64,000 nucleotides of DNA. It comes from Ancylomarina subtilis. Its GTDB lineage: Bacteria; Bacteroidota; Bacteroidia; Bacteroidales; Marinifilaceae. Below the pieces are notes generated by a model. The model was not told the origin of the DNA. It did no database searches and saw only the letters and a list, made by a program, of their open reading frames with translations. This document shows, piece by piece, positions 49,745-64,000 of this stretch. Position 1 is the stretch's first letter; each line of letters starts with the position of its first letter. Both the position numbers and the translations under genes were made by a program. The DNA lies in contig NZ_SHKN01000001.1 of assembly GCF_004217115.1 (NCBI RefSeq), positions 1,677,781 through 1,741,780 of the forward strand, given 5' to 3'.

Positions 49745-51823
49745 TTATTTAATTTCGATCAAACTGATAGCTGCACCACCACCTGCTGCCAAGTGCATGT
49801 CAATTATTGAAGTAGCATCAACAACTTGCTCCTCAATCTTATAATCGGTCGGGTTTTTATCCCAGTGCGCCTTGTCACCATCCAAATAAAGCGTTGCCTT
49901 GTATTTTTTTCCAGAAGGAAGAAAATCAAGTTTAAGGCTCATGTCTCTGGCATTTTCATCGGTGATAGTACCAACAAACCAATTATTTGATGCTCTGTCC
50001 TGACGCGCAATTGTTACAAAATCACCAATCTCACCATTCAAAACTTTCGTTTGTTCCCAATTCACCACCACATCGCGGATAAACTGAAAAGCCGGATGTC
50101 CCTTATAGTTCTCAATTAAATCAGGCACCATCTGGATTGGGCTATTGATGACTACATAGAGAGCCAACTGATGCGCCAGTGTTGTGTTCACCTGATTATT
50201 GGCTTTATGCGGCTTCAACTTGATATTGAAAATACCGGGCGTGTAATCGATAGGACCAGCCAGCATACGAGTGAAAGCCACAATTGGCAAGTGTTCTGCT
50301 GGATTGCCTCCATCACTCGACCAGGCATTAAATTCTTGTCCACGTAAGCCTTCACGAGAAATCGCATTGGGGTAAGTACGACGTAAACCTGTCGCTTTAA
50401 TTGGCTCGTGAGCATTTACGGCTACCTTATACTTTGCTCCCATTTCCAATGCACGACGATAATGATTTACCATCCATTGTCCGTGATGATATTCTCCTTT
50501 AGGAATCAGTTTCCCCACATAACCGGTTTTCACCGAATGTATCCCTAAACTGTTCATCAAATGATAAGCTGTATCCAATTGTTGATCGTAGGTGCGAGGT
50601 GCAGCAGAGGTCTCATGGTGCATAATCAGCTCCACTCCTTTTTCCTTACCATAACGAACCACCTCAGGTAAATCGTAATCATCGTAAGCCGTTACAAAAT
50701 CGAATACCCCTTCACGATCTTCAAAACCAATCCAGTGTTCCCAACCCGTATTCCAACCTTCAACCAAAATACCACCAATCTTATTTTCGGATGCAAAATC
50801 GATTAATTCTTTAGCATATTCAGTCGTAGCTCCATGTCGACCACTAGCTTTATCCCAGGTTTTGGTTCCCAAATGCATGTCCCACCAAATCCCTACATAT
50901 TTCATCGGTTTAAAATACGAAACATCTCCAATTTTGTTCGGCTCATTTAAGTTGACAATTAAATCTGATTGGATTAGATCACCAGCTTTCTCAGCAATCT
51001 GAATGGTACGCCAAGGTGTCTGGAATGGTAAAGATCGTTTCACTTTATAGTCTGTTCTCTCAGATCCAACCAGAGTCGAAACCATCTTCATATTCGAAGT
51101 ATCTACTTTAAGTGTCATCCCAGAATAATCCGTCAGGTTGGCTTCATGAAAACTCAAATAAATTCCCTCGGCTGTTTTCATACTAACTGGCGTATTCACG
51201 GCATTATTAGGGATAGAAGTTTGAGCTAAACTTGCATGTCCTCGCAATTTTGTAGCATCAATCTCAGAAAACTGAGTTGTATGATAAAGATGCTCATAGA
51301 TATCCCAGTCTCCCGGAATCCACCAAACCTTATGATCGCCAGTTAGATTGAATTCTGTATTCTCTTCCGCAATCAAAAGCTCTTTCATAGCTTCCTGCTC
51401 TGGAAACTCATATCTGAAACCAATTCCATCATTATAGGCTTTAAACTCCAGATTCATTTTTCTATTGGGAGCTTCTTTTTCAGATAAAGCTACAATAAGT
51501 TCGTTAAAGTGATCTTCAACCACACGCTTTTCACCCCAAGGCATTTCCCATGTAGAATTGCTACTGGTTTGTTTGGCTGATACAATTTCCCACCCCGACT
51601 TGATGGCTGGCATATTGGTAAAATCGAAACCCAGTGTTGAAGGTTTAATAACTGATTTCCCATTGAAACTTACTTGATAAGTTGGTTGACCACTCTCAAG
51701 ATTAATTGAAATAGTAATTATACCATCAGGTGATTTAAGTTCTTGTTTTTGCATATTGCTATTACAAGAAAGCATGGTTATTGATAGAATAATCATGCCA
51801 AATAAAAGTCTTTTGATGTTCAT
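49745..51823 (-). CDS. GH97 alpha-glucosidase (SusB-like) lipoprotein
   Basis: A 692-residue glycoside hydrolase family 97 enzyme. The N-terminus (MNIKRLLFGMII, then LSC) is a lipoprotein signal; an upstream in-frame ATG would place 20 charged residues before it. A beta-super-sandwich domain covers about 25-290, then a TIM barrel beginning KYVGIWWDMHLGTKTWD. MHHETSAAPR near 400, NAHEPIKATGLRRTYPN near 470 and GLRGQEFNAWS near 495 provide the three Glu residues of inverting SusB-type enzymes, and VKTGYVG replaces the Asp-nucleophile motif of retaining alpha-galactosidase members. It should release glucose from alpha-glucans. It is monocistronic, with a DUF6377 regulator just upstream. Confidence 0.9.
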   Translation of the reverse strand: MNIKRLLFGMIILSITMLSCNSNMQKQELKSPDGIITISINLESGQPTYQVSFNGKSVIKPSTLGFDFTNMPAIKSGWEIVSAKQTSSNSTWEMPWGEKRVVEDHFNELIVALSEKEAPNRKMNLEFKAYNDGIGFRYEFPEQEAMKELLIAEENTEFNLTGDHKVWWIPGDWDIYEHLYHTTQFSEIDATKLRGHASLAQTSIPNNAVNTPVSMKTAEGIYLSFHEANLTDYSGMTLKVDTSNMKMVSTLVGSERTDYKVKRSLPFQTPWRTIQIAEKAGDLIQSDLIVNLNEPNKIGDVSYFKPMKYVGIWWDMHLGTKTWDKASGRHGATTEYAKELIDFASENKIGGILVEGWNTGWEHWIGFEDREGVFDFVTAYDDYDLPEVVRYGKEKGVELIMHHETSAAPRTYDQQLDTAYHLMNSLGIHSVKTGYVGKLIPKGEYHHGQWMVNHYRRALEMGAKYKVAVNAHEPIKATGLRRTYPNAISREGLRGQEFNAWSSDGGNPAEHLPIVAFTRMLAGPIDYTPGIFNIKLKPHKANNQVNTTLAHQLALYVVINSPIQMVPDLIENYKGHPAFQFIRDVVVNWEQTKVLNGEIGDFVTIARQDRASNNWFVGTITDENARDMSLKLDFLPSGKKYKATLYLDGDKAHWDKNPTDYKIEEQVVDATSIIDMHLAAGGGAAISLIEIK

Positions 51824-52003
51824 GAGTTTATAATTTGATTTTGATTGTTTTCGATAATCAAAATAAGAGCATTCAGTTTCCAATAACTAAAATATAAACC
51901 AATATATAGACGATAACTGATAACTCAAAGAATTAACCAACTCATAAACTGTTAATTTAAAAAAACTGAAAATTCGATAAATATAGATGATATAAAGGAG
52001 AAT

Positions 52004-53587
52004 TTACACCGACTTAATTGCCATTACCTTTAAATCGAACGCTTCGTTGGGATAGATGGAGCGATTACGAATCTTGGTTTTGTAGGTATAAATGGTGTTG
52101 ACCGAAAGGTTGAGGATGCTGGCGATTTTCTCGTTATCGGCAACACCAATTCGAATCAAGGCAAAAATGCGCAGATCCGTATTCAGAGATAAATCATCCT
52201 TTAAACAGATGCGATCCTTTTCATCGAAAAGCTGATTAAAACGATCAACAAAATCAGGAAAGAGCTTTAAGAAGATTCGATCGAAGTCTTCAAATAAGCG
52301 TTGGCGTTCCTTTTTTGAATTGTATTTCTTCAATTCCTGTTCAATATTATCATAGGACTTGGTGATCATCTGTCTGGAGATAGACTTCTTAAAATCTTCA
52401 AGTTTATCGATGTATTGCGAACTAAAATTGAAATAATAGCCAATGTACTCTTCTTTAATTCGACTGGCCTCTCTAAGCAGTTCATTCACATGCGTTAAAT
52501 TTTGATTGCTTCGCTCAATTTCCTTTCGCGCTTGACGCAGTTTCTGCAACTGACGAAGGATAACCAATGAAAAAACCAAAACCAACACACCAATCAGCCC
52601 AAGCATCTTTTTTTGCTTATTCTCTTTCTGGAAACGAGCCGATTCAATCAGAGGTAAGATATATGAAATTTCAAATTTGCGTTGTTCCGAACCATAAAAA
52701 TCGGCATCAGCTTTAGCCAGTAAAATGTATTGATATGCTTTATCAATTCTCCCTTCCTTGTAAAAAAGTTCGGCTAATGATCGGCAGGCTGTGGTTTCTT
52801 TTGTCGACGATTTGATATCGGCAATACTGGCTTTCATTAAGTATTCTTTTGCCTTCTCCACTTCCCCCCTGTCCGAATAAATAAAACCCAAACCCGAAGT
52901 CACAATCGCAGTTTCATGATCATTCAGTTTGAATTGATTCAACAAGTCGATATAATAGTCTTCGGCTTGATATAACTTACCACTCACCATGCTTTGTAAT
53001 GCCAATCCCAACAGCTTTTCAAATGAAGGCTCCTTGAACTCATCAATCAGTTTCTGACTGTAGAAATGCCCTAATTTCTTATAGGCTTCACTGTAATGTT
53101 TATCTCGTGAATAGCCTGACAAATCGTAATAAGCCCGATATGCCGTGCTATAAAATTCCTTCCTTTTTTCATTAGACAAGTATTGATAATCAACCGTATT
53201 TAAAGTATCAATCGACGACGTATACAAACCTTTTAAAAGCATAATCAAGCTGAGCTTCGACTTAGACTCAGCAATTTTCGACTTATCTTTTAATTGATAA
53301 GCCAAACCGTTAGCTGCCTGTGCATATTTAAATGCTGAATCGTAAACAAAATATTCGTATGCTCTTACAGATTTCATTAGGGCTGAGAATTCCTTGTCAC
53401 TATTTTTTTCTTCCCTGGTAGATCGCAAATCTTCCAAAAGATTTTTAATCATCTCTTTCTTGGCAGCATCAATCTCATCGCGTTTCGAGATATAATGATC
53501 CAATTGCTTTGACCAATCTGTTTGAGCGATACTAGTCTGACAAAAAATGATCTGAATAAATAAAATAGAAAAGAAAAGCCTTAGCAT
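52004..53587 (-). CDS. DUF6377 TPR/membrane regulator with C-terminal HTH
   Basis: A 527-residue protein. A signal sequence (residues 1-21) precedes a periplasmic TPR-like region (about 25-315, including DFYGSEQRKFEISYILPLIE near its end). One transmembrane helix lies at about 327-346 (LGLIGVLVLVFSLVILRQL), then a coiled coil and a cytoplasmic C-terminus with a LuxR/GerE-like HTH (NEKIASILNLSVNTIYTYKTK, near 480-500). This is the DUF6377 layout of Bacteroidota, thought to be a membrane transcription regulator that couples an outside signal to DNA. It is next to the GH97 gene, which it might control, but both seem to be separate units. Confidence 0.82.
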   Translation of the reverse strand: MLRLFFSILFIQIIFCQTSIAQTDWSKQLDHYISKRDEIDAAKKEMIKNLLEDLRSTREEKNSDKEFSALMKSVRAYEYFVYDSAFKYAQAANGLAYQLKDKSKIAESKSKLSLIMLLKGLYTSSIDTLNTVDYQYLSNEKRKEFYSTAYRAYYDLSGYSRDKHYSEAYKKLGHFYSQKLIDEFKEPSFEKLLGLALQSMVSGKLYQAEDYYIDLLNQFKLNDHETAIVTSGLGFIYSDRGEVEKAKEYLMKASIADIKSSTKETTACRSLAELFYKEGRIDKAYQYILLAKADADFYGSEQRKFEISYILPLIESARFQKENKQKKMLGLIGVLVLVFSLVILRQLQKLRQARKEIERSNQNLTHVNELLREASRIKEEYIGYYFNFSSQYIDKLEDFKKSISRQMITKSYDNIEQELKKYNSKKERQRLFEDFDRIFLKLFPDFVDRFNQLFDEKDRICLKDDLSLNTDLRIFALIRIGVADNEKIASILNLSVNTIYTYKTKIRNRSIYPNEAFDLKVMAIKSV

Positions 53588-53653
53588 ATTGGACTGTACG
53601 TATTAGAATAAATGTTGAATACAAAGTAAAGCATAAAATGTAAAAACAAAAAC

Positions 53654-53680
53654 AGGAGATCAAGTGCTAACCGATCTCCT
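53654..53680 (-). terminator. Intrinsic terminator of ilvA
   Basis: AGGAGATC/GATCTCCT stem (8 bp) with an 11-nt loop, followed on the minus strand by GTTTTTGTTTTT, 22 bp after the ilvA stop. Confidence 0.8.
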
Positions 53681-53702
53681 ATTCTTGCTAATTCTAATGG
53701 AC

Positions 53703-54968
53703 TTAAACTATAAACTGAAACAAATCTGTTTTATCATTCAGGTATTCGAAAATAAATTTTCGATCCGTCATTCTATCTTGCAAACGCTTTAAGTCTTCAG
53801 GTTTTTGCACCTCAATTCCAATGACAGCCGGGCCTTTTTCACGACTACTTTTCTTATAATATTCAAAGTGAGTGATGTCGTCACCCGCATCGAGCACATC
53901 GTTCACAAATTCCTTTAGTGCGCCTGATCGTTGTGGGAAACGGACTATAAAATAATGCTTCAATCCTTCATACAGCAGGCTTCTTTCCTTTATTTCCTCC
54001 ATTCGGGTAATGTCGTTATTGCTGCCACTAAGAACACAAACCACATTTTTCCCTTTGATCTTATCCCCCATCAACTCCAAAGCTGCTATTGATAAAACAC
54101 CAGCAGGCTCTGCAACTATAGCATCCTCATTATACAAGCGTAATATCGTTGAGCAAATCAAACCTTCGGGCACAATCAGAATGTCATCCAAAACCTTATC
54201 GCAAATTTGCCAGGTATAATCGCCAACCTTCTGAACGGCTGCGCCATCAACAAATCGATCGATACTTTCTAAGGCCAGATTACACTTATTATCCAAAGCC
54301 AATTTCATGGATGGAGCTCCTTCTGGCTCAACACCTATAATTTTTGTATTGGGGCTGAATTCCTTAATCCACGCACCAACACCCGAAGCCAATCCTCCGC
54401 CACCTATGGGTAGAAACAAATAATCGATAGGTTCGGTAAATTGTTGCAATATTTCAAGTCCAATTGTACCTTGTCCTTCTATGGTTTTAGGATCGTCAAA
54501 AGGGTGAATAAAGGTCTTACCTTGCTCTTTGGCATCCGCAATCGCCTTTGATGATGCATCATCAAAAGTATCACCTGTCAAGAAAACTTCCACAAAGTCG
54601 CCACCAAACATCTTCACCTGCTTAATTTTCTGACGAGGCGTGGTTTCGGGCATGTAAATACTGCCAAAACATTTCAATTTCTGACAAGAATAGGCCACTC
54701 CCTGAGCGTGATTCCCCGCGCTGGCACAAACAATTCCCTTATCTAAATTCACCTTGCTCAAACTTGCAATCTTATTGAAAGCCCCTCTTATTTTATAGGA
54801 CCGAACCAATTGCAAATCTTCTCTTTTTAAATGAACATTGGCTTTATAGCGCGATGACAAATTCAAATTATTAAGCAATGGAGAAGCTAACACCACATCC
54901 TGAACCGTTCGATTCGCTTTGACTATCTCCGACATTTTCGGATAATATTCCTTTTTATTTTCTGACAC
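53703..54968 (-). CDS. ilvA: Threonine ammonia-lyase (threonine dehydratase)
   Basis: A 421-residue PLP enzyme converting threonine to 2-oxobutanoate, the first step to isoleucine. The PLP Lys is K59 in LVRSYKIRGAFNK; the Gly-rich phosphate loop is LPIGGGGLASG near 185, and SGSNND near 310. The C-terminal ACT-like part (HYFIVRFPQRSGALKEFV to the end) is a single regulatory domain, like the short IlvA of Bacteroidota and Bacillus. The start appears to be GTG 54968 with AAAAGGG upstream; ATG 54935 is an alternative. It follows leuB by about 100 bp and closes the branched-chain block. Confidence 0.93.
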   Translation of the reverse strand: MSENKKEYYPKMSEIVKANRTVQDVVLASPLLNNLNLSSRYKANVHLKREDLQLVRSYKIRGAFNKIASLSKVNLDKGIVCASAGNHAQGVAYSCQKLKCFGSIYMPETTPRQKIKQVKMFGGDFVEVFLTGDTFDDASSKAIADAKEQGKTFIHPFDDPKTIEGQGTIGLEILQQFTEPIDYLFLPIGGGGLASGVGAWIKEFSPNTKIIGVEPEGAPSMKLALDNKCNLALESIDRFVDGAAVQKVGDYTWQICDKVLDDILIVPEGLICSTILRLYNEDAIVAEPAGVLSIAALELMGDKIKGKNVVCVLSGSNNDITRMEEIKERSLLYEGLKHYFIVRFPQRSGALKEFVNDVLDAGDDITHFEYYKKSSREKGPAVIGIEVQKPEDLKRLQDRMTDRKFIFEYLNDKTDLFQFIV

Positions 54969-54992
54969 TATTTTCCCTTTTAAAATTCAAAT

Positions 54993-55019
54993 AATGCTCA
55001 GGAATTAATCCTGAGCATT
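54993..55019 (-). terminator. Terminator-like hairpin between leuB and ilvA
   Basis: Perfect 10-bp stem AATGCTCAGG/CCTGAGCATT with a 7-nt loop. The following minus-strand sequence (ATTTGAATTTT) is only a weak T-tract, so termination may be partial. Confidence 0.6.
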
Positions 55020-55068
55020 GAGTACAAACTTGCTAAGAGGGTAACCACTCCCCAATACACAAGATTAA

Positions 55069-56145
55069 CTACAAACTGTTCTCTTTTATAAAATTGACTA
55101 ACCAATCACCGACTTCAGTCGTTGAAAAGGCTTTGCCCCCCTCAGCTAAATCTTCAGTCACAAAATTGGCTTCAATTGATTTCTCTACAGCTAGACGAAC
55201 CAAAGCTGATTCCTGTTTCAACCCAAAAGCATGATCAAGCATCATGGCAGCTGATAAAACGGTAGCACATGGATTCGCAATATTTTTGCCTGCTGCTTGC
55301 GGATAAGATCCATGAATGGGTTCAAAAATTGAAGTATGAACACCTATTGAAGCTGAAGGCAACATTCCCAGTGATCCCGAAATCACACTCGCCTCATCTG
55401 TCAATATATCACCAAACATATTCTCAGTTACCATCACATCGAAACGCTTCGGCCAGGTGATAATTTGCATTGCTGCATTATCCACAAACATATACTCCAC
55501 CTCAATTTCCGGGTATTCTGGCTCTAGTTTCTGTGCAATTTCTCTCCAAAGACGGGACGTAGCTAAGACATTAGCCTTATCTACAATTGTTAATTTTTTT
55601 CTGCGTTTTCCTGCAAATTCAAAGCCCAAACGCACAATACGTTCCACTTCTTCGGCAGTATAAACACAGGTATCATAAGCCGTTTTTCCATCTTCTGATC
55701 TGCCCTGAGGACGACCGAAATAAATACCACCTGTCAACTCACGTATACACAAGAAGTCGACTCCTTCGAGCAATTCTGTCTTGAGGGGCGACTTGTGCAA
55801 TAAAGCCTTAAAAGGCTCCAAAGGACGAAGATTGGCATACAAGCCCAACTTTTGTCTCATAGCCAACAACCCCTGCTCCGGACGAACTTTTGCATTCGGG
55901 TCGTTATCATATTTGGGATCGCCAATGGCTCCAAAAAGAACCGCGTCCGAATTCATACACAGCTTATGCGTTTCATCGGGATACGGAGTTCCATGCACAT
56001 CAATGGCTGAAGCTCCAATTAAAGCTTCAGTATATTCAAATTGATGGTTAAATTTTTCTGCAATCGCATCAAGCACATTACGTGCTTGTGCAACAATTTC
56101 GGGACCGATACCATCACCGGCTAAAACTGCAATTTTATATGACAT
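55069..56145 (-). CDS. leuB: 3-isopropylmalate dehydrogenase
   Basis: A 358-residue beta-decarboxylating dehydrogenase of leucine synthesis, oxidising 3-isopropylmalate with NAD+. [13 protein letters not shown] opens the protein; [15 protein letters not shown], with the Arg and Tyr of the active site, lies near residue 134; [19 protein letters not shown] near 243 carries the metal-binding Asp residues; and [14 protein letters not shown] near 275 is the NAD site. Length is normal. The 125-bp gap to leuD contains the heptamer repeat array at 56238-56278. Confidence 0.97.
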
Positions 56146-56237
56146 CTTTTAGATGGTTTATTTATTTGTAAATGTGTTATTAAGTCGAATAGTCTTTAAA
56201 TCAAAAGAGCCTTCGTTCCAATAAAATAAGTCAGCGC

Positions 56238-56278
56238 AACCTTTAACCTTTAACCTTTAACCTTTAACCTTTAACCTT
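56238..56278. repeat. Tandem heptamer array (AACCTTT, nearly six copies)
   Basis: Five full copies and six bases of a sixth. The right end overlaps the leuD stop codon (56271-56273): the last codons GAA GGT TAA are part of the repeat unit on the minus strand. The remaining units are non-coding. Two copies of the same heptamer occur at 58445-58458. Confidence 0.95.
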
Positions 56279-56849
56279 CAAAGTCTTGGATCTTTGCCTT
56301 TTTGTCAATTAAGTAATCGATATCATCGAATCCATTTAATAAACAGTCTTTTTTATAGGGATTTATCTCAAACTGAAAAGCTTCATCATTATACCTCAGC
56401 TCTTGTTTTTCAAGATCAACCCCTACTTTCTGAGAATGATCTTTCTCAATAGCCTTGAATAATTTTCTCAGGAATTCAGCAGATACCTGAATCGGCAACA
56501 CCCCATTATTCAAGGCATTATTTCTAAAAATATCGGCAAAGAAACTGCTGATGACAACTTTGAATCCATAATCGGCAATAGCCCAGGCAGCATGTTCTCT
56601 TGAGGAACCGGATCCAAAATTCTTACCAGCAAGCAGAATTTGTCCTGAATACTCGGACTGATTTAACACAAAATCTTTAATCGGTTCTCCAGAAGAAGAA
56701 AAACGCCAATCTCTAAAAAGATTTTCTCCAAAACCTTCACGGCTGGTTGCTTTTAAAAAACGAGCGGGTATAATCTGATCGGTGTCTACATTCTCGTTGG
56801 GAAGTGGCACACAGGATGATTCTAAATATGTAAATTTATCTACGGACAT
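56271..56849 (-). CDS. leuD: 3-isopropylmalate dehydratase small subunit
   Basis: A 192-residue LeuD, the swivelling domain of isopropylmalate isomerase. [19 protein letters not shown] near the N-terminus and [18 protein letters not shown] near 74-91 are the family motifs, the latter binding substrate phosphate-like groups. It pairs with LeuC, encoded 75 bp upstream, to convert 2- to 3-isopropylmalate. Its stop codon lies inside a tandem repeat, so repeat slippage to the left of the stop would not change the protein. Confidence 0.96.
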
Positions 56850-56924
56850 TGTTTTATTTTTTGAAATGAATGTAAACTCAGTTGTCGGTTTTCTGTTTTT
56901 CAGTATCAGACAAGTGACAAGCTG

Positions 56925-58325
56925 TTACAAGAATTCTCTGGGATCGGTGATCACACCTGTAATGGCTGCAGCGGCTGCAGTGAGCGGACTTGCTAATAAG
57001 GTTCTTGCCCCCGGTCCCTGTCGTCCTTCAAAATTTCTATTGGATGTGGAAACACAATATTTACCAGCAGGTACCTTATCTTCATTCATTGCCAAACAAG
57101 CTGAACACCCTGGCTGTCTCAATTCGAAACCAGCCTCTTCCAAAATCTCGACCAAGCCTTCTTCCATCGCTTGCTTTTCGACCTTTTTAGAGCCCGGAAC
57201 AATCCATGCCGTGATTGAATCGGCCTTTTTGTGTCCAGCCACCAAAGAAGCAAAAGCTCTTAAATCTTCAATTCTGCCATTGGTACAGGAGCCAACAAAA
57301 ACGTAATCAACTTTCTTACCCAAAATTTTTCTACCAAACTCATATTCCATATAGGCCAATGATTTCTTAAACGATGGCAGCTCCGAAGCTTGAATATCTG
57401 CTTGAGCCGGAACACATGCTGTAATTCCCATTCCCATCCCCGGGTTGGTTCCATAAGTAATCATGGGTTCTATATCTTCAGCCCTATAGGTATATTCCAT
57501 ATCAAACTCAGCACCTTCATCGGATTTCAAAGTTTTCCAATAGGTTAATTTCTCATCCCATTCGTCTCCTTTGGGAGCGTATGCTCTACCTTTTATGTAT
57601 TCAAATGTTGTTTCATCAGGCGCAATCATTCCTCCTCGAGCGCCCATCTCGATACTCATATTACAAACGGTCATTCTGCCTTCCATACTCAGGCTACGCA
57701 CAGCAGATCCGGCATATTCAACAAAGTAACCCGTAGCTCCGCCTGTTCCCAATTGCGCTATCACATAAAGCGTTAAATCTTTCGCTGAAACGCCTTTAGC
57801 TAATTCGCCATCAACGGTAATCCGCATCTTTTTAGGTTTGGATTGCATGATACACTGCGTGGCAAAGACCATCTCAACCTCCGATGTTCCAATTCCAAAA
57901 GCCACAGCACCAAAAGCGCCATGCGTTGAGGTATGACTATCGCCACAAACCAAGGTCATGCCAGGTTGCGTATGTCCCAGCTCTGGTCCAACAACATGAA
58001 CAATGCCGTTGTTGGGATGATTCAAACCGTACATCTCAATCCCGTTCTTCTCACAGTTCGCTTTTAAAGTTTCAACTTGCGAACGTGATTCCATGTCAAC
58101 GATAGGCAAATGTTGGTTCACAGTAGGGACATTGTGATCCGGTGTTGCGATAGTTCTTTCCGGTCTAAATACGTTTAAACCTCTTGCATTCAAGCCCGAA
58201 AAAGCCTGTGGACTGGTTACCTCATGAATCAAATGCTTGTCGATGTAAAGAATGTTTGGGCCACCTTCAACATGTTCGACCACGTGTGCGTCCCAGACCT
58301 TATCAAATAATGTTTTTGCTTTCAA
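56925..58325 (-). CDS. leuC: 3-isopropylmalate dehydratase large subunit
   Basis: A 466-residue aconitase-family protein. The [4Fe-4S] ligands are Cys in FVGSCTNGR near 348 and the two Cys of [13 protein letters not shown] near 410. [15 protein letters not shown] near 126 is a conserved substrate loop. The start is TTG 58325, giving [16 protein letters not shown], which matches the normal N-terminus; no ATG fits. A 16-bp tandem duplication lies 14 bp before this start, so it could affect translation initiation. Confidence 0.96.
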
Positions 58326-58339
58326 TGTATATGTTTTGT

Positions 58340-58371
58340 GAATTCGTGAGTTTATGAATTCGTGAGTTTAT
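58340..58371. repeat. Two tandem copies of a 16-bp unit
   Basis: GAATTCGTGAGTTTAT is repeated exactly at 58340-58355 and 58356-58371, directly upstream of the leuC start (minus strand). Confidence 0.95.
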
Positions 58372-58444
58372 AATGAATAATCAAGTCAAATAGTCTGAAA
58401 GTCTTAAATGTCAAAATATCTTATTAACAGACAACAGCCAGCGG

Positions 58445-58458
58445 AACCTTTAACCTTT
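58445..58458. repeat. Two AACCTTT heptamers in the leuA-leuC gap
   Basis: Two tandem copies, preceded by CAGCGG as the longer array at 56238 is preceded by CAGCGC. An AAGTC(A/G)AATAGTCT block lies about 50-56 bp away in both gaps (58383 and 56182), so the two intergenic segments share ancestry or function. Confidence 0.85.
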
Positions 58459-58460
58459 CC

Positions 58461-59954
58461 TTAAACCAACTTCGCCAAGGCATTCACCAAGGCTTCAACT
58501 GAAGCGGTAATAATGTCGATATTGGCTCCAAAGCCATAATACATTTTCCCTTGGTGCTGCAATTGGACATGAACTTTTCCCAAATCATCGCTGCCACGAG
58601 TCAAGGTTTGAACAAGAAATTCTTCCATAGAAAACTTCTGTTTAATCAACTTCTTAACCGCATTGAAACAAGCATCAATAGGACCATTTCCCTCAGCAGT
58701 AGCTGCACAGGATTCACCTTTAATCTTAAGATGAACCGTCGCCATAGGAGTCGTCGATTTACCGGCAAGAACCTGTAATAATTCCAACTCAACGGATTGA
58801 GTTTCCAACTCATGATCCCCCATCAACTCAGCCAAATCATTTTCATTCACATTCTTTCTCTCATCGGCCATCACCAGAAATTTTGAATAGGCATCATCCA
58901 AGTCTTCCTTCGAAAGGGTATAGCCCATTTCATTTAAGTGATGATTTAGTGCCGCACGACCACTTCTGGCTGATAGTATAATGGCCGATTCCTTAATACC
59001 AACATCAGCAGGATCGATAATCTCATAATTCTCGCGATTTTTCAAAACCCCATCCTGATGAATACCTGATGAATGCGCAAAAGCATTGCGACCAACAATA
59101 GCCTTATTCGCCTGAACCGGCATATTCATTAATGAAGAAACCAAACGGCTGGCCTCGTAAATACCCTTCGTATTAATATCGGTATGGTAAGGCAAATCGT
59201 GATGTGTCTTAATCGCCATCACCACTTCTTCAAGAGAAGTATTCCCCGCACGCTCCCCAATTCCGTTTAAGGTCACCTCAACCTGACGCGCTCCATTAAT
59301 CACTCCACTCAATGAGTTGGCTGTGGCCATACCCAAATCGTTATGACAATGTGTCGACAAAATCGCCTTGTGAACATTGGTTACATTCTCCATCAGATAC
59401 TTGATTTTCGCACCATATTCACCTGGCAAACAATAACCTGTTGTATCCGGAATATTGATAACGGTTGCTCCTGCTTTAATCACAGCCTCAACCACTCTTG
59501 CCAAATATTCATTATCCGAACGTCCCGCGTCTTCAGCGTAGAATTCCACATCCTCAACATAGCGCTTAGCATACTTCACTGCTCGTACAGCACGATCAAG
59601 AATTTCATCTGGGTTTGAATTCAGTTTATTGAAAATATGATAAGGCGAAGTCCCAATACCTGTATGAATTCGGCCTCTTTTAGCAAACTTCAGTGCCTGA
59701 GCAGCCACATCAATATCCTGTTCAACGGCACGGGTTAATGCACAAATGGTAGGATTGTTCACTGCTTTGGCTATTTCCACCACGGATTGAAAGTCTCCCG
59801 GACTTGATACAGGGAAACCCGCTTCGATCACATCCACGCCTAAAGCTTCAAGCGTTCTTGCGACTTCAATTTTCTCAATTGTGTTTAACTGACAGCCAGG
59901 GACCTGCTCCCCATCGCGCAATGTGGTGTCGAAAATAAATAATCTATCACTCAT
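58461..59954 (-). CDS. leuA: 2-isopropylmalate synthase
   Basis: A 497-residue LeuA, joining acetyl-CoA and 2-oxoisovalerate; the committed step to leucine. [17 protein letters not shown] at residues 9-25 and [15 protein letters not shown] near 200 carry the metal ligands. The C-terminal regulatory domain (about 385-497) ends in [12 protein letters not shown] and [16 protein letters not shown], consistent with leucine feedback. Transcription into it seems controlled by the attenuator at 59997-60140. The leuC gene follows after 135 bp. Confidence 0.97.
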
Positions 59955-59996
59955 TTTTTCTTGTGTTTTGTGGTTAAGTTCTATTCAGTTAATAGC

Positions 59997-60026
59997 AAAA
60001 AAAAAGCCCTTCCTTGTGGGAAGAAC
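59997..60026 (-). terminator. Attenuator (intrinsic) terminator in front of leuA
   Basis: On the minus strand GTTCTTCC-CACAA-GGAAGGGC forms an 8-bp stem with two G-U pairs (60006-60026), followed by nine Ts (59997-60005). It ends 42 bp before the leuA ATG and 30 bp after the leader-peptide stop. Its 5' arm, UCUUCCC (60018-60024), can pair instead with GGGAAGA at 60068-60074. Confidence 0.85.
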
Positions 60027-60074
60027 TTCGTATAATTTCATCTGTTCTGATTCAAATTATAGCACAGTCTTCCC
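60018..60074 (-). promoter_or_regulatory. Antiterminator pairing of the leu attenuator
   Basis: Seven perfect base pairs can form between GGGAAGA (60068-60074), inside the last codons of the leader peptide (ACA GGG AAG ACT), and UCUUCCC (60018-60024), the 5' arm of the terminator. The two structures exclude each other. A ribosome at the leader stop codon would cover GGGAAGA and let the terminator form; one stalled on the Ile/Leu codons would leave it free. Confidence 0.65.
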
Positions 60075-60140
60075 TGTCGAACTCATAATAATGAGGTCGA
60101 TAATGAGAATTAATCCGATAAGAATAGAATTCGTATTCAT
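60057..60140 (-). CDS. leu operon leader peptide (27 aa, Ile/Leu-rich)
   Basis: The short frame from ATG 60140 reads MNTNSILIGLILIIDL and continues to a total of 27 residues, with seven Ile, five Leu and one Val; eleven of the first eighteen residues are Ile or Leu. It lies between ilvC and leuA, directly before a terminator and antiterminator pair. That is the layout of classical attenuation of branched-chain operons, where slow translation through Ile/Leu codons prevents termination. A small membrane peptide is an alternative reading, but the matching RNA structures favour a leader. The frame is open further upstream (to 60242) but the ATG fits better. Confidence 0.75.
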   Translation of the reverse strand: MNTNSILIGLILIIDLIIMSSTGKTVL

Positions 60141-60193
60141 GATATTTTCATTGCTGTGATATAACCAATTAAGACCCTTTCTCAATTGCTGAA

Positions 60194-60201
60194 CAAACCT
60201 A
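60194..60201 (-). promoter_or_regulatory. Candidate -7 box of the leu operon promoter
   Basis: On the minus strand TAGGTTTG matches TAnnTTTG and would start transcription about 47 nt before the leader-peptide ATG. TATGTTTG at 60276-60283 is a second match further upstream. Neither has an ideal -33 TTTG. Confidence 0.45.
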
Positions 60202-60488
60202 AAAACTATACAACTTGAGTGAAAACAATTTATCCGATTCAACTACGATCTTCAAATCAATCTGGCCTTCAGATTCAAACATACAAAAATCAGCCAATCG
60301 CTTAAACAACTGAAACTTAAAAACCAGATCTGTTTTGAATAGAATGGGTTATCCAACATTCATTTTTATAAAAAAGATCAAGTCACATTAAGACTATTAG
60401 CACCCCAAAATGAGTATGGGGTACCAATAGTTGATTGCAAATTAACAGGGTGCAAACATGTCTTACACCTAATCAACTAAGTCTTCAC
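60202..60488. other. Remaining ilvC-leuA spacer
   Basis: AT-rich, no gene. A hairpin AACTAAG/CTTAGTT (60475-60494) overlaps the ilvC stop without a T-run, and ACCCC/GGGGT (about 60400-60423) forms a weak second one. A second TAnnTTTG box (60276-60283) lies here. Confidence 0.4.
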
Positions 60489-61535
60489 TTAGTTGTTCTC
60501 CGGGCGAAGCTTACGAACCGCTGTTCCGGCTTGCCACATTTCACTATCACGTAACTCCTCTAATTCAGCATCCAATTTCACTCGATAATCCTCTTGTGAG
60601 TTCGAATCGATGGAACGTTGCGCTTCATTTCCGGCAGCAACTTCCTTATACAACTTTTCGAAAACGGGTTTGGTTGCATCACGGAAAGGCTTCCACCAAT
60701 CCAGTGCACCACGCTGTGCCGTTGTCGACGTATTGGCATACATCCAATCCATACCATTTTCAGCAACAAGAGGCATCAAACTCTGTGTCAACTCTTCAAC
60801 CGTCTCGTTAAAAGCCTCAGATGGCGAATGACCATTAGCACGCAAAACTTCGTACTGAGCAGCGAAGATCCCCTGAATACATCCCATCAAAGTACCACGC
60901 TCACCTGTCAGATCAGAATAAACTTCACGCTTAAAGGTGGTTTCGAAAAGGTAACCCGATCCAACACCAATACCCAAGGCAACTACTCGCTCGAAAGCAC
61001 GACCTGTTGCATCCTGAAAAATAGCATAAGAAGAATTCAAACCACGTCCCTCAAGAAACATACGACGCAAACTGGTTCCAGAACCTTTAGGTGCAACCAA
61101 AATCACATCCACATCAGCCGGAGGCACAATACCGGTTCGTTCCTTATAGGTGATCCCGAATCCATGAGAGAAATAAAGGGCCTTACCCGGCTTCAAATAT
61201 TTCTGAACTGTTGGCCAAACAGCAATCTGGCCTGCATCAGACAATAGATACTGAATAACTGTTGCCTTATCCAAAGCTTCTTCAATCTCGAAAAGATCTT
61301 TACCGGGAACCCAGCCATCAGCTACCGCCTTATCCCAGGTTTTGGAATCTTTACGTTGTCCAACGATAACATTAAAACCATTATCTTTCAGGTTTAAAGA
61401 CTGTCCCGGACCTTGTACTCCATAACCAATAACAGCAATGGTTTCATCTTTCATCACTTCGCGAGCTTTTTCCAATGAAAACTCTTCACGTGTCACAACT
61501 TGTTCTTCTGTTCCTCCAAAATTTATTGTTGCCAT
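60489..61535 (-). CDS. ilvC: Ketol-acid reductoisomerase
   Basis: A 348-residue NADPH-dependent enzyme acting on acetolactate and acetohydroxybutyrate, shared by valine, leucine and isoleucine synthesis. The N-terminal Rossmann motif is AVIGYGVQGPGQSLNLKD near 35-52, LVAPKGSGTSLRRMFLEG near 146 covers the conserved Lys/Pro-Gly loop, and SDLTGERGTLMG near 212 carries the metal-binding Asp/Glu. The length (about 350) is that of the Bacteroidota form. It is 115 bp downstream of ilvN. Confidence 0.97.
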   Translation of the reverse strand: MATINFGGTEEQVVTREEFSLEKAREVMKDETIAVIGYGVQGPGQSLNLKDNGFNVIVGQRKDSKTWDKAVADGWVPGKDLFEIEEALDKATVIQYLLSDAGQIAVWPTVQKYLKPGKALYFSHGFGITYKERTGIVPPADVDVILVAPKGSGTSLRRMFLEGRGLNSSYAIFQDATGRAFERVVALGIGVGSGYLFETTFKREVYSDLTGERGTLMGCIQGIFAAQYEVLRANGHSPSEAFNETVEELTQSLMPLVAENGMDWMYANTSTTAQRGALDWWKPFRDATKPVFEKLYKEVAAGNEAQRSIDSNSQEDYRVKLDAELEELRDSEMWQAGTAVRKLRPENN

Positions 61536-61650
61536 TTCTTTTAATTTTTATTTGGGATTTAAGATTAAGAAAAGCACATTCATACTTCTTTCATCCCACT
61601 TTATTATTTATTCAATTTTTATTCTTTTTATTTTCAATTCTAAATGAGAA

Positions 61651-62172
61651 TTAACTGGCTTCCGCCAATTCCTTCAGATAAGTGGTAAAATCTTTCTGCA
61701 AAGTTGATACCGCTACGCGTCCCGATCGTGCGAATTGCAAAACGCCATATTGCTCCAACTCCTCAAACAAATCTTGGTTTTCAGCCTTATAACCAACTCT
61801 CTCAATCACCAAAAAATCGGTACTCACCGTTAAGATTTTTGCATTATAGTTTCGGACCAAAGCTTCCAGATTTCCATTCAAGTTTTTTGAATTCGCAATT
61901 TTAAACAAAGCCACCTCCTGATGAACAATCTCTTCTGCATCGAAATAAATCGCTTTGAAAACACCAATAATCTTCTCGATCTGAAGCACAATATTCTCAA
62001 CTTTGCTTTCGTCCATAAAAGCGACAATCGTGTATCGGGACACTCCCTTTACCTCTGACTCCGAAACAGTCAGGCTTTCAATATTGATCTTTCTCCTTGA
62101 AAAAACGATGGTTATCTCATTCAGAAGACCGATATTGTTTTCCGAGAATACGGTTATTGTATATTCTTTCAT
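61651..62172 (-). CDS. ilvN: Acetolactate synthase small (regulatory) subunit
   Basis: A 173-residue IlvN/IlvH with an N-terminal ACT domain (YTITVFSENNIGLLNEITIV, RRKINIESLTVSESE) and a C-terminal ALS_ss domain (about 85-170). It gives feedback control by valine to the catalytic subunit IlvB. ATG 62172 (MKEYTITV) matches the family start; a TTG at 62214, 2 bp after the ilvB stop, is less likely. Transcribed with ilvB. Confidence 0.94.
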   Translation of the reverse strand: MKEYTITVFSENNIGLLNEITIVFSRRKINIESLTVSESEVKGVSRYTIVAFMDESKVENIVLQIEKIIGVFKAIYFDAEEIVHQEVALFKIANSKNLNGNLEALVRNYNAKILTVSTDFLVIERVGYKAENQDLFEELEQYGVLQFARSGRVAVSTLQKDFTTYLKELAEAS

Positions 62173-62216
62173 CTCTTTAATTTTTAGTTCCTTTTCAAAC
62201 TCTAGACTTATCAACT

Positions 62217-63953
62217 TTACTCCAGTCTCATATCAGAAACAGCCGCTCCCGGTGCGATCATGGGTAGTACATTCGATTCGGTTTCAACAACAACTTCAAG
62301 AAAATAGGCATTGGGTGATTCCAGCATTTCTTTAATGGCTGCATCCAAATCTTCTCGCTTACTAACTCTTTTGGCTTGTATGCCGTAGCCCTCAACAATT
62401 TTCACAAAATCCGGATTATCCAATCGGGTGCACGAGAAACGTTGATCGAAAAACAGATCCTGCCACTGTCGAACCATTCCCAGAAATGAATTATTCAGTA
62501 CAATGGTTTTAACCGGCAAACTATATTGTCTGATCACAGCCAATTCCTGCAAAGTCATCTGAAAACCACCATCTCCCGATATGGAAACAACCGTAGCCTC
62601 TTTATCTCCAATTTGAGCACCAATGGCTGCCGGCAATCCAAACCCCATGGTTCCCAAACCACCAGAAGTAATTTGCGTATTCGGTTTTTTAAATTGATAA
62701 TAGCGAGCCGACGCCATCTGATGCTGTCCCACATCGGTACATAATACAGCCTCACCATGGGTTTGTTCCGACACCAAACGAACGACTTCTGCCATATTAA
62801 TCTGCTCCCTATCCGAATAAGCTTGTTTCCTGATCACCTTATCAAATTCAAGCTGATAAAAATCACTGAAACTCTTCATCCACTCGGATTTAAACTTTCC
62901 ACTAACCAGTTCATTCAAGGCAGTCAAAGCTTGTCTGGCATCAGCCAATATCGGCACATCAACCTTAATATTTTTATTGTGTTCCGACCGATCAATATCG
63001 ATATGAATGATTTTAGCCTGCTTGGCATATTTCGCGGTATCACCTGTTACCCTATCGTCGAAACGCATGCCCACAGCAATCAACACATCGCATTCGTTGG
63101 TGTTTTTATTGGGTCCGTAATTCCCATGCATGCCCAACATGCCCACATACAAAGGATGATCTGTTGGGAAAGAAGACAAGCCCAAAAGGGTACATGCCAC
63201 CGGAATCTGAGTCTTTTCAACAAATGCTTTCAACTCCTTTTCAGCCCCTGACAATAAGATACCCTGACCAGCAAGCAGTAAAGGTTTCTTCGCATTATTG
63301 ATCAATTCGGCTGCGGCTTCAATCTGGCTCATATCTAACTTGGGCGTGGGCTGATAAGAACGGATAAACTCACACTTTTTATACTTATAATCTGCCGTTG
63401 CAATCTGTGCATCCTTGGTGATATCAATCAAGACAGGCCCCGGACGCCCTGAGCGCGCTATATAAAAAGCTTTGGCCATCACCTCAGCAATCTCCTCAGC
63501 TTTGGTAATTTGAAAATTCCACTTCGTAACCGGCATAGATAAACCAATCATGTTGGTTTCCTGAAAGGCATCCGAGCCCAAAAAGCCACTGGCTACTTGT
63601 CCGGTAATGATCACAAGTGGAGTTGAATCCAGATAGGCATCAGCCAATCCGGTTAAAACATTAGTCGCTCCCGGCCCCGAAGTGGTGAAACAAACACCAG
63701 GCTTCTTACTGATTCGCGCATAAGCCTGCGCCGCATGAGTTGCCCCCTGCTCGTGGCGCGCTTGATAATGCTGCAGTTCATCCTGATGATCATATAAGGC
63801 ATCGTACACCGGCATAATCGCCCCTCCGATATAACCAAATATGCTATCCACATCTTCTTCTACCAGACTTCGAACCAATATTTCTGCACCAGATAAATGC
63901 TCTGTGGCTTTAGTCATGGTATTCGTATTTTGAGTTATTGTTGCTACTTCCAT
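62217..63953 (-). CDS. ilvB: Acetolactate synthase large subunit
   Basis: A 578-residue ThDP enzyme. FGYIGGAIMPVYDALYDHQ near 38, with RHEQGATHAAQAYAR supplying the catalytic Glu, is the N-terminal active-site region. GDGGFQMTLQELAVIRQYSL near 456 is the ThDP/Mg motif, and LNNSFLGMVRQWQ near 482 completes the site. The loop reads GYIGG where many homologues have GYPGG. It condenses pyruvate with pyruvate or 2-oxobutanoate. ATG 63953 is used; an internal ATG at 63917 (MTKATEHLSG) is also possible. The upstream gene, perhaps ilvD, is outside the window. Confidence 0.96.
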   Translation of the reverse strand: MEVATITQNTNTMTKATEHLSGAEILVRSLVEEDVDSIFGYIGGAIMPVYDALYDHQDELQHYQARHEQGATHAAQAYARISKKPGVCFTTSGPGATNVLTGLADAYLDSTPLVIITGQVASGFLGSDAFQETNMIGLSMPVTKWNFQITKAEEIAEVMAKAFYIARSGRPGPVLIDITKDAQIATADYKYKKCEFIRSYQPTPKLDMSQIEAAAELINNAKKPLLLAGQGILLSGAEKELKAFVEKTQIPVACTLLGLSSFPTDHPLYVGMLGMHGNYGPNKNTNECDVLIAVGMRFDDRVTGDTAKYAKQAKIIHIDIDRSEHNKNIKVDVPILADARQALTALNELVSGKFKSEWMKSFSDFYQLEFDKVIRKQAYSDREQINMAEVVRLVSEQTHGEAVLCTDVGQHQMASARYYQFKKPNTQITSGGLGTMGFGLPAAIGAQIGDKEATVVSISGDGGFQMTLQELAVIRQYSLPVKTIVLNNSFLGMVRQWQDLFFDQRFSCTRLDNPDFVKIVEGYGIQAKRVSKREDLDAAIKEMLESPNAYFLEVVVETESNVLPMIAPGAAVSDMRLE

Positions 63954-64000
63954 CTTGTTAGTTATTTGTCAATGATCCTTGTGAATCGTTTATCCTCACA

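Follow-up and report, generated by a model that had tools for sequence, protein, structure and literature searches.

What lies in the long gap before leuA in Ancylomarina subtilis, and could it control the genes behind it? NCBI assigns the genus to Marinifilaceae in the Bacteroidota. The window, by which we mean the whole stretch of 64,000 nucleotides analysed here, ends at its right side in a branched-chain amino-acid cluster on the minus strand. There ilvB-ilvN-ilvC is followed, after a gap of 534 nt, by leuA-leuC-leuD-leuB-ilvA (names by likeness; Table 1). The names leuC, leuD and leuB are presumed from sequence likeness together with gene order, and ilvA from sequence likeness. LeuA to LeuD make leucine, LeuB, LeuC and LeuD are also used in isoleucine synthesis from citramalate (CimA), and IlvA supplies an isoleucine precursor from threonine.

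A leader element with all the parts of an attenuator precedes leuA

Read from the sequence, positions 60140–59997 of the minus strand hold a peptide frame, a terminator and a competing antiterminator. The original prediction had described a 27-codon peptide with seven Ile and five Leu codons, and this frame is confirmed on the minus strand, from 60140 to 60057. Its tract of nine Ts also stands, but the terminator stem has 10 bp, two G-U pairs included, rather than the 8 bp first given. Likewise, GGGAAGA and UCUUCCC are complementary over 7 nt as claimed. In 10 of a set of 13 close relatives that includes the window, the seventh, outermost G-C pair does not form, so that the conserved antiterminator core is GGAAGA/UCUUCC, and an inner helix formed by UAUAAUUU and AAAUUAUA had been missed. 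A TAnnTTTG box, TAGGTTTG, is present before the peptide, 53 nt from the ATG and not 54 bp; by eye, the sequence shows no clear -33 box at the usual spacing upstream of it.

Table 1. Features of the ilv-leu cluster and of the leuA leader (window coordinates)
Feature	Position	Strand	Remarks
ilvB	62217..63953	-	ilvD lies beyond the window end
ilvN	61651..62214	-	start codon provisional
ilvC, upstream neighbour	60489..61535	-	534 nt gap to leuA
Bacteroidota-type -7 promoter box (TAnnTTTG), TAGGTTTG	60194..60201	-	candidate; 53 nt before leader ATG
Leader peptide frame MNTNSILIGLILIIDLIIMSSTGKTVL, 27 aa, 7 Ile, 5 Leu	60057..60140	-	ATG at 60140, stop TAA 60059-60057; relatives carry an Ile/Leu-dense frame too
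Control codons, codons 6-18, ILIGLILIIDLII	60087..60125	-	putative stall region for uncharged tRNA-Ile/tRNA-Leu
Antiterminator 5' arm GGGAAGA	60068..60074	-	within the peptide frame, 12 nt past the last Ile codon of the run
Inner antiterminator helix, 5' side UAUAAUUU	60054..60061	-	overlaps the stop codon; pairing holds in 76.5% of cells across 13 close relatives
Inner antiterminator helix, 3' side AAAUUAUA	60031..60038	-	pairs with UAUAAUUU
Antiterminator 3' arm UCUUCCC	60018..60024	-	overlaps the terminator 5' arm; complementary to GGGAAGA
Intrinsic terminator hairpin AAGUUCUUCC-CACAA-GGAAGGGCUU, 10 bp	60004..60028	-	predicted; pairing kept in 97.7% of cells across 13 close relatives
Nine-T tract of the terminator	59997..60005	-	from sequence
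leuA, first gene behind the putative attenuator	58461..59954	-	
leuC	56925..58325	-	presumed; sequence likeness and gene order
leuD	56271..56849	-	presumed; sequence likeness and gene order
leuB	55069..56145	-	presumed; sequence likeness and gene order
ilvA (threonine dehydratase), isoleucine gene behind the putative attenuator in this genome	53703..54968	-	presumed; sequence likeness

The leader is predicted to adopt two mutually exclusive folds

The 236-nt leuA leader folds more stably than expected by chance (z = -2.8). For a ribosome placed on the run's last Ile codon, the RNA left free ahead of it is predicted to fold best into a 57-nt antiterminator (-19.0 kcal/mol), without a terminator. 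Moving the ribosome to the stop codon makes the terminator the best fold (-12.9 kcal/mol), and the terminator is predicted to form as well when no ribosome is on the leader. By sequence and predicted folds alike, antiterminator and terminator are mutually exclusive.

These parts suggest the following course of events, in which promoter use, translation of the peptide, stalling, and actual termination and read-through are steps that we infer from the sequence. RNA polymerase would start at the TAGGTTTG promoter, or read through from ilvC, with a ribosome trailing it along the leader frame rich in Ile and Leu. If charged tRNA-Ile and tRNA-Leu are in ample supply, the ribosome would reach the stop codon and mask the GGGAAGA arm together with the 5′ side of the inner helix; the terminator would then fold and transcription would stop near 59997. 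With either tRNA uncharged, the ribosome would stall in the ILIGLILIIDLII run, its front edge just short of the arm, and the freed arm could pair with UCUUCCC, block the terminator and let transcription enter leuACDB-ilvA.

An alternative fold is also what a different kind of sensor would use: a T-box, a metabolite riboswitch or an RNA-binding protein could act on the same terminator, with an antiterminator driven by a ligand. At gathering score, Rfam gave no match, T-box included, in window positions 50000–64000, and in 19 related loci it matched only rRNA and tRNA, with no leader, T-box or riboswitch family. At a relaxed threshold it returned no leader or riboswitch family either, the best sub-threshold hit being Phe_leader with an E of 0.41. 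These searches, and an arm position that tracks the codon run, make another sensor very improbable. Taken together, the parts, the exclusive folds, the recurrence in relatives, the arm spacing and the fit between codons and genes bear out the classical leader-peptide reading of the original prediction, and we consider it highly probable that the leuA leader is a ribosome-mediated transcription attenuator reading leucine and isoleucine.

The element recurs before leuA and ilvD

We sought leuA in 58 relatives (33 with a match), in 392 genomes of the phylum (242) and in 295 of the order (122), and added 80 named loci. From the leuA-bearing genomes a subset was fetched, comprising 30 loci and 20 regions of the 242 and 80 regions of the 122. 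Our detector required an Ile/Leu/Val-dense frame of 9–45 codons with ATG as the only start allowed, followed by a terminator, together with a helix from the frame end to the terminator 5′ arm, with an antiterminator helix score threshold of 14 in its strict form and 11 in a looser one; the thresholds were chosen within the present analysis. Genes in relatives were named by likeness to those of the window. Left out were seven loci with another LeuA type (L097, L098, L100, L103, L123, L126 and L132), leuA matches below 45% identity, loci that duplicated another across their final 150 nt (120 nt when ilvD was counted with the looser detector), and genes with too little upstream sequence.

A comparison of the leuA spacer across relatives, the check that the original prediction proposed, found the Ile/Leu frame, terminator and antiterminator together in 77 of 227 distinct leuA upstream regions (34%), including every one of the 13 distinct sequences that come from the six nearest genera (LeuA identity at least 86%). 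The background of the detector is about 1%, with 6 calls in 681 dinucleotide shuffles and 9 upstream of 972 other ORFs, each 250 aa or longer, from the same loci. All three parts also precede ilvD in 39 of 67 upstream regions, against 1 of 201 dinucleotide shuffles, and ilvE in 3 of 7. When whole loci were scanned, 8 of 41 matches fell at unrelated sites and appear to be chance hits. Of the 77 leuA leaders, 66 have a TAnnTTTG box no more than 80 nt from their ATG, compared with 79 of 1540 mononucleotide shuffles, and just four have Shine-Dalgarno-like strings.

Named loci with a leuA-type attenuator are, by title or taxonomy, presumably Bacteroidales, the unnamed ones come from the window's order, and none was found in loci L036–L059, fetched from other orders of the phylum. 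In loci titled as members of Flavobacteriales, Cytophagales, Chitinophagales or Sphingobacteriales, units found near these genes sit before ilvD or ilvE. No attenuator was found before leuA in four more distant loci of the window's own family (L018, L021, L026 and L027), where leuA begins at most 170 nt from ilvC.

Gene spacing bears directly on a simpler account, that the hairpin is a plain terminator of the ilvBNC unit, followed by unregulated read-through or a promoter for leuA, and that the short frame is incidental. The terminator and the upstream ilvC are there, as this account needs, and terminators between units are common; here, however, the promoter box precedes the terminator instead of following it, and frame, codon make-up and antiterminator arm recur at a fixed spacing. 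Moreover, among 42 clusters with both ilvD and leuA in view, leuA has its own attenuator in 0 of 25 where it lies less than 200 nt from the preceding gene (18 of these 25 have one before ilvD) versus 15 of 17 where the gap is larger. We therefore give a plain terminator very little credence, and continue with the attenuator.

One locus stands apart. The 420 nt before ilvD in L164 (genome G024) are identical (420/420) to those of L163 (G001), which belongs to another genus. Against L170 (G013), of its own genus, G024 matches at 140 of 420 positions before ilvD (an unaligned count), yet its leuA leader matches that of G013. Either part of the cluster was transferred recently or the assembly is contaminated (reported contamination 5%).

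Arm position and pairing fit a stalled ribosome

The antiterminator arm begins 10–14 nt past the last Ile/Leu codon in 56 of the 77 leuA leaders, whereas 20 runs with shuffled terminator arms gave a mean of 21.35 and a maximum of 31. The front half of a stalled ribosome reaches about 12–15 nt from the P site, a figure quoted in PMC3641672, and the observed spacing roughly fits it. Some arms are as far as 31 nt upstream of where the stop codon ends, a position that a terminating ribosome would not cover.

We then scored each arm against its own and other terminators, with leaders picked by frame and terminator only, since preselection for a helix biases this comparison. leuA arms scored 19.5 with their own terminator and 13.3 with others' of different sequence, the own score being higher in 68 of 76; for ilvD the scores were 18.6 and 13.6, with the own score higher in 39 of 48. 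Without helix selection, scores below 14 were found for 3 of 76 leuA candidates and 10 of 48 ilvD candidates, the second ilvD unit of the window's own genome among them. Taken individually, only 41 of the 77 arms did better than shuffled versions of themselves (p < 0.05). The species counted throughout are related and not independent, so that p-values are overstated.

In the 13 nearest sequences, none of the 15 antiterminator pairs changed on both sides, the covariation score was reached by 427 of 500 shuffles, and a slide by three columns paired nearly as well (74.6% versus 81.3%) and scored higher for covariation. Variation in the core GGAAGA/UCUUCC is slight among these sequences, and L011 breaks two arm pairs uncompensated. 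The terminator stem carries one-sided changes at 7 of its 10 pairs, with 97.7% of cells paired. Compensatory change, which had been proposed as support, is suggested between families, where arms differ and stay matched (the 68 of 76 above), but is not seen among the 13 near relatives, where no change is two-sided.

Leader codons fit the genes downstream

Counted in 14-residue windows, the 77 leuA leaders hold 345 Ile, 350 Leu and 12 Val codons, and 65 ilvD/ilvE leaders (looser detector) hold 359 Ile, 142 Leu and 176 Val. The codons fit the genes: leuA leaders would read isoleucine and leucine, and ilvD/ilvE leaders also valine.

The isoleucine content of leuA leaders varies with what lies behind them. 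With cimA or ilvA downstream (63 leaders), the mean Ile share is 0.53 and each window has at least two Ile; with neither downstream (six leaders), the median share is 0.06 and five have zero or one Ile codon (one-sided Mann-Whitney p = 0.0014, kinship ignored; 8 of the 77 leaders were not classable by downstream genes). The Leu-only group thus consists of five leaders, two of them of one genus. The sixth leader (L030/L087) contains Ile; in its genome, G037, cimA lies on another contig (60% identity), and the only ilvA match is weak (3.9e-11). Another leader, L071, contains Ile with no cimA in its cluster; its genome, G716, has cimA elsewhere, and ilvA was not found there. Absence of cimA from the operon was tried on its own as a rule and fails for L030/L087 and L071, both of which a genome-wide cimA search explains. 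A genome-wide search found no cimA in the Leu-type genomes G683, G621, G030, G715 and G449, an absence that is weaker for G030 because that genome is 84% complete; all five carry ilvA elsewhere, at 60–64% identity (38% in G449).

Within Ancylomarina, leaders with ilvA behind the attenuator (G000, the window's genome, G002 and G004) have seven Ile and four to five Leu in the window of residues, and those with ilvA before it (G001 and G003) have three Ile and six to seven Leu; G003 has cimA downstream, yet only three Ile. The gene itself has two places in the genus: just before the leuA attenuator in two species (L162 and L163) and at the end of the leu unit in three.

A strict rule by which the ilvD leader loses Leu once leuA has its own attenuator was also tried, and fails locus by locus, with L063 and L199 keeping Leu. 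On average, the Leu share of ilvD leaders is 0.41 in 18 merged clusters versus 0.17 in 15 split ones, 12 of the 15 being from the window's family.

Serial units and leaders for other amino acids

Beyond the window, two units in tandem, MQLNTTIIINVIIRVLIGHESRLCILN and MLSSKLVIIIIIMVIVIIRMRMRESVHTQ, precede ilvD of the same genome (start G000:C1:1743665, minus strand), and each has a terminator to itself (locus L160, G000:C1:1741500-1746500). Their antiterminator helices have 6 bp with a score of 13.5 and 5 bp with a score of 13; both scores miss the strict threshold of 14, which is why the 39 of 67 do not include this ilvD. The second helix has 6–9 bp in most near relatives and 5 bp in G000 and G002. 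At the looser threshold of 11, two units precede ilvD in 17 of 66 upstream regions, 13 from the window's family together with L112, L205, L209 and L219, and the same detector run on 660 dinucleotide shuffles called one unit in 17 and two in none. L112 is from Lutibacter, a flavobacterium with two tandem branched-chain leader attenuators before ilvD. The ilv-leu cluster of the window's genome thus has three leaders on one strand, two before ilvD and one before leuA. With three attenuators in series, leu expression that starts at the first promoter would depend on three ribosome decisions multiplied together.

The same genome carries candidate leaders for other amino acids. Two His leaders precede hisG (L286; the first has a helix score of 15, and the second has a hairpin whose interrupted T-run was not called a terminator), two Phe/Tyr leaders precede pheA (L321; helix scores 11.5 and 19.5), and one Trp-Trp-Trp leader precedes trpE (L303), whose helix score of 10 means that an antiterminator there is not supported. 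Across loci, a matching frame and terminator were found before hisG in 14 of 15 (0 of 75 shuffled), before trpE-family genes in 11 of 17 (5 of 85 shuffled) and before pheA in 14 of 15 (7 of 75 shuffled).

These versions speak against a third explanation of the leuA frame, that it encodes a functional small hydrophobic membrane protein whose Ile and Leu content reflects a membrane helix. The frame is indeed Ile/Leu-rich and about one helix long. Its length as called, however, runs from 14 to 39 residues, the residues outside the Ile/Leu run vary between families, and the peptide tail tracks the RNA arm, reading for example Gly-Ser-Glu where the arm is GGAAGTGAG. Ile is also scarce in leaders with no Ile gene downstream. 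A membrane protein is thus the least plausible of the alternatives, with a negligible chance of being right.

From the His, Trp and Phe/Tyr leaders and the ilvD tandems, control by leader peptides therefore looks general in these bacteria, with serial units frequent. We think it somewhat more probable than not that leader-peptide attenuation is a general form of amino-acid control in Bacteroidota, often serial, as here with two Ile/Val(/Leu) leaders before ilvD and an Ile/Leu leader before leuA, and that leader codons evolve with gene order, Ile being gained or lost as cimA or ilvA enters or leaves the unit.

Discussion

The mechanism itself is classical leader-peptide attenuation. The leu and ilvGMEDA attenuators of E. 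coli and Salmonella share with the present leader a short frame of end-product codons, a terminator and a competing antiterminator before leu or ilv genes. Unlike them, the leuA leader here combines Ile and Leu almost without Val, belongs to a set that is nearly devoid of Shine-Dalgarno-like strings, lies inside an ilv-leu cluster behind two tandem ilvD attenuators, and has no Rfam match. What is new is an attenuator that recurs in a phylum poor in Shine-Dalgarno sites, outside the families of Rfam and often in series.

The original prediction held that few leader-peptide attenuators are documented in this phylum, a fair statement: one paper, on Flavobacterium psychrophilum, speaks of 'strong clues' of such attenuation before amino-acid operons (PMC9723704). 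It names structured 5′ elements before pheA and hisG; its main text mentions neither leuA nor ilv genes, and its attenuation section has no codon or comparative analysis. In the same phylum, leader-like short frames have been described in 5′ UTRs of Bacteroides thetaiotaomicron (PMC7366714), where the example is BT_4401, a hypothetical protein, and the main text does not name leuA. Two leader frames in series within one leader RNA are likewise found in Salmonella mgtCBR (PMC3641672), where the account describes two different signals (ATP and proline) and stem-loops unlike intrinsic terminators; the ilvD tandem, unlike mgtCBR, has an intrinsic terminator for each frame, and both frames would read branched-chain codons. 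RNA control of amino-acid genes outside Proteobacteria is also described for actinobacterial leader elements (PMC1262725) and for a Corynebacterium ilvBNC uORF (PMC10272879), in another phylum. Naville and Gautheret stated in 2010 that, apart from the atypical ermC leader, they knew of no leader-peptide system demonstrated beyond Proteobacteria and Actinobacteria earlier than their own case in Firmicutes (PMC2965389). Our literature search, which covered subscription journals thinly, returned no leuA or ilvD leader attenuators in Bacteroidota and no tandem ones before amino-acid operons; Lopatovskaya et al. 2010 (Mol Biol 44:128; cited in PMC4833913) may hold predictions for the phylum.

The main weight of these findings, with every function putative, would lie in the breadth of leader attenuation in Bacteroidota, in leader codons that track operon content, and in serial units. 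Natural variation of the phylum in codons, gene order and unit number offers ready-made experiments on codon sensing, on whether these bacteria couple transcription to translation, and on the contribution of attenuators in series. The findings also suggest a role for unannotated short frames and terminators before amino-acid genes of marine and gut Bacteroidota. If the proposed reading is true, a phylum that makes little use of Shine-Dalgarno sites would couple transcription to translation, in its leaders at least.
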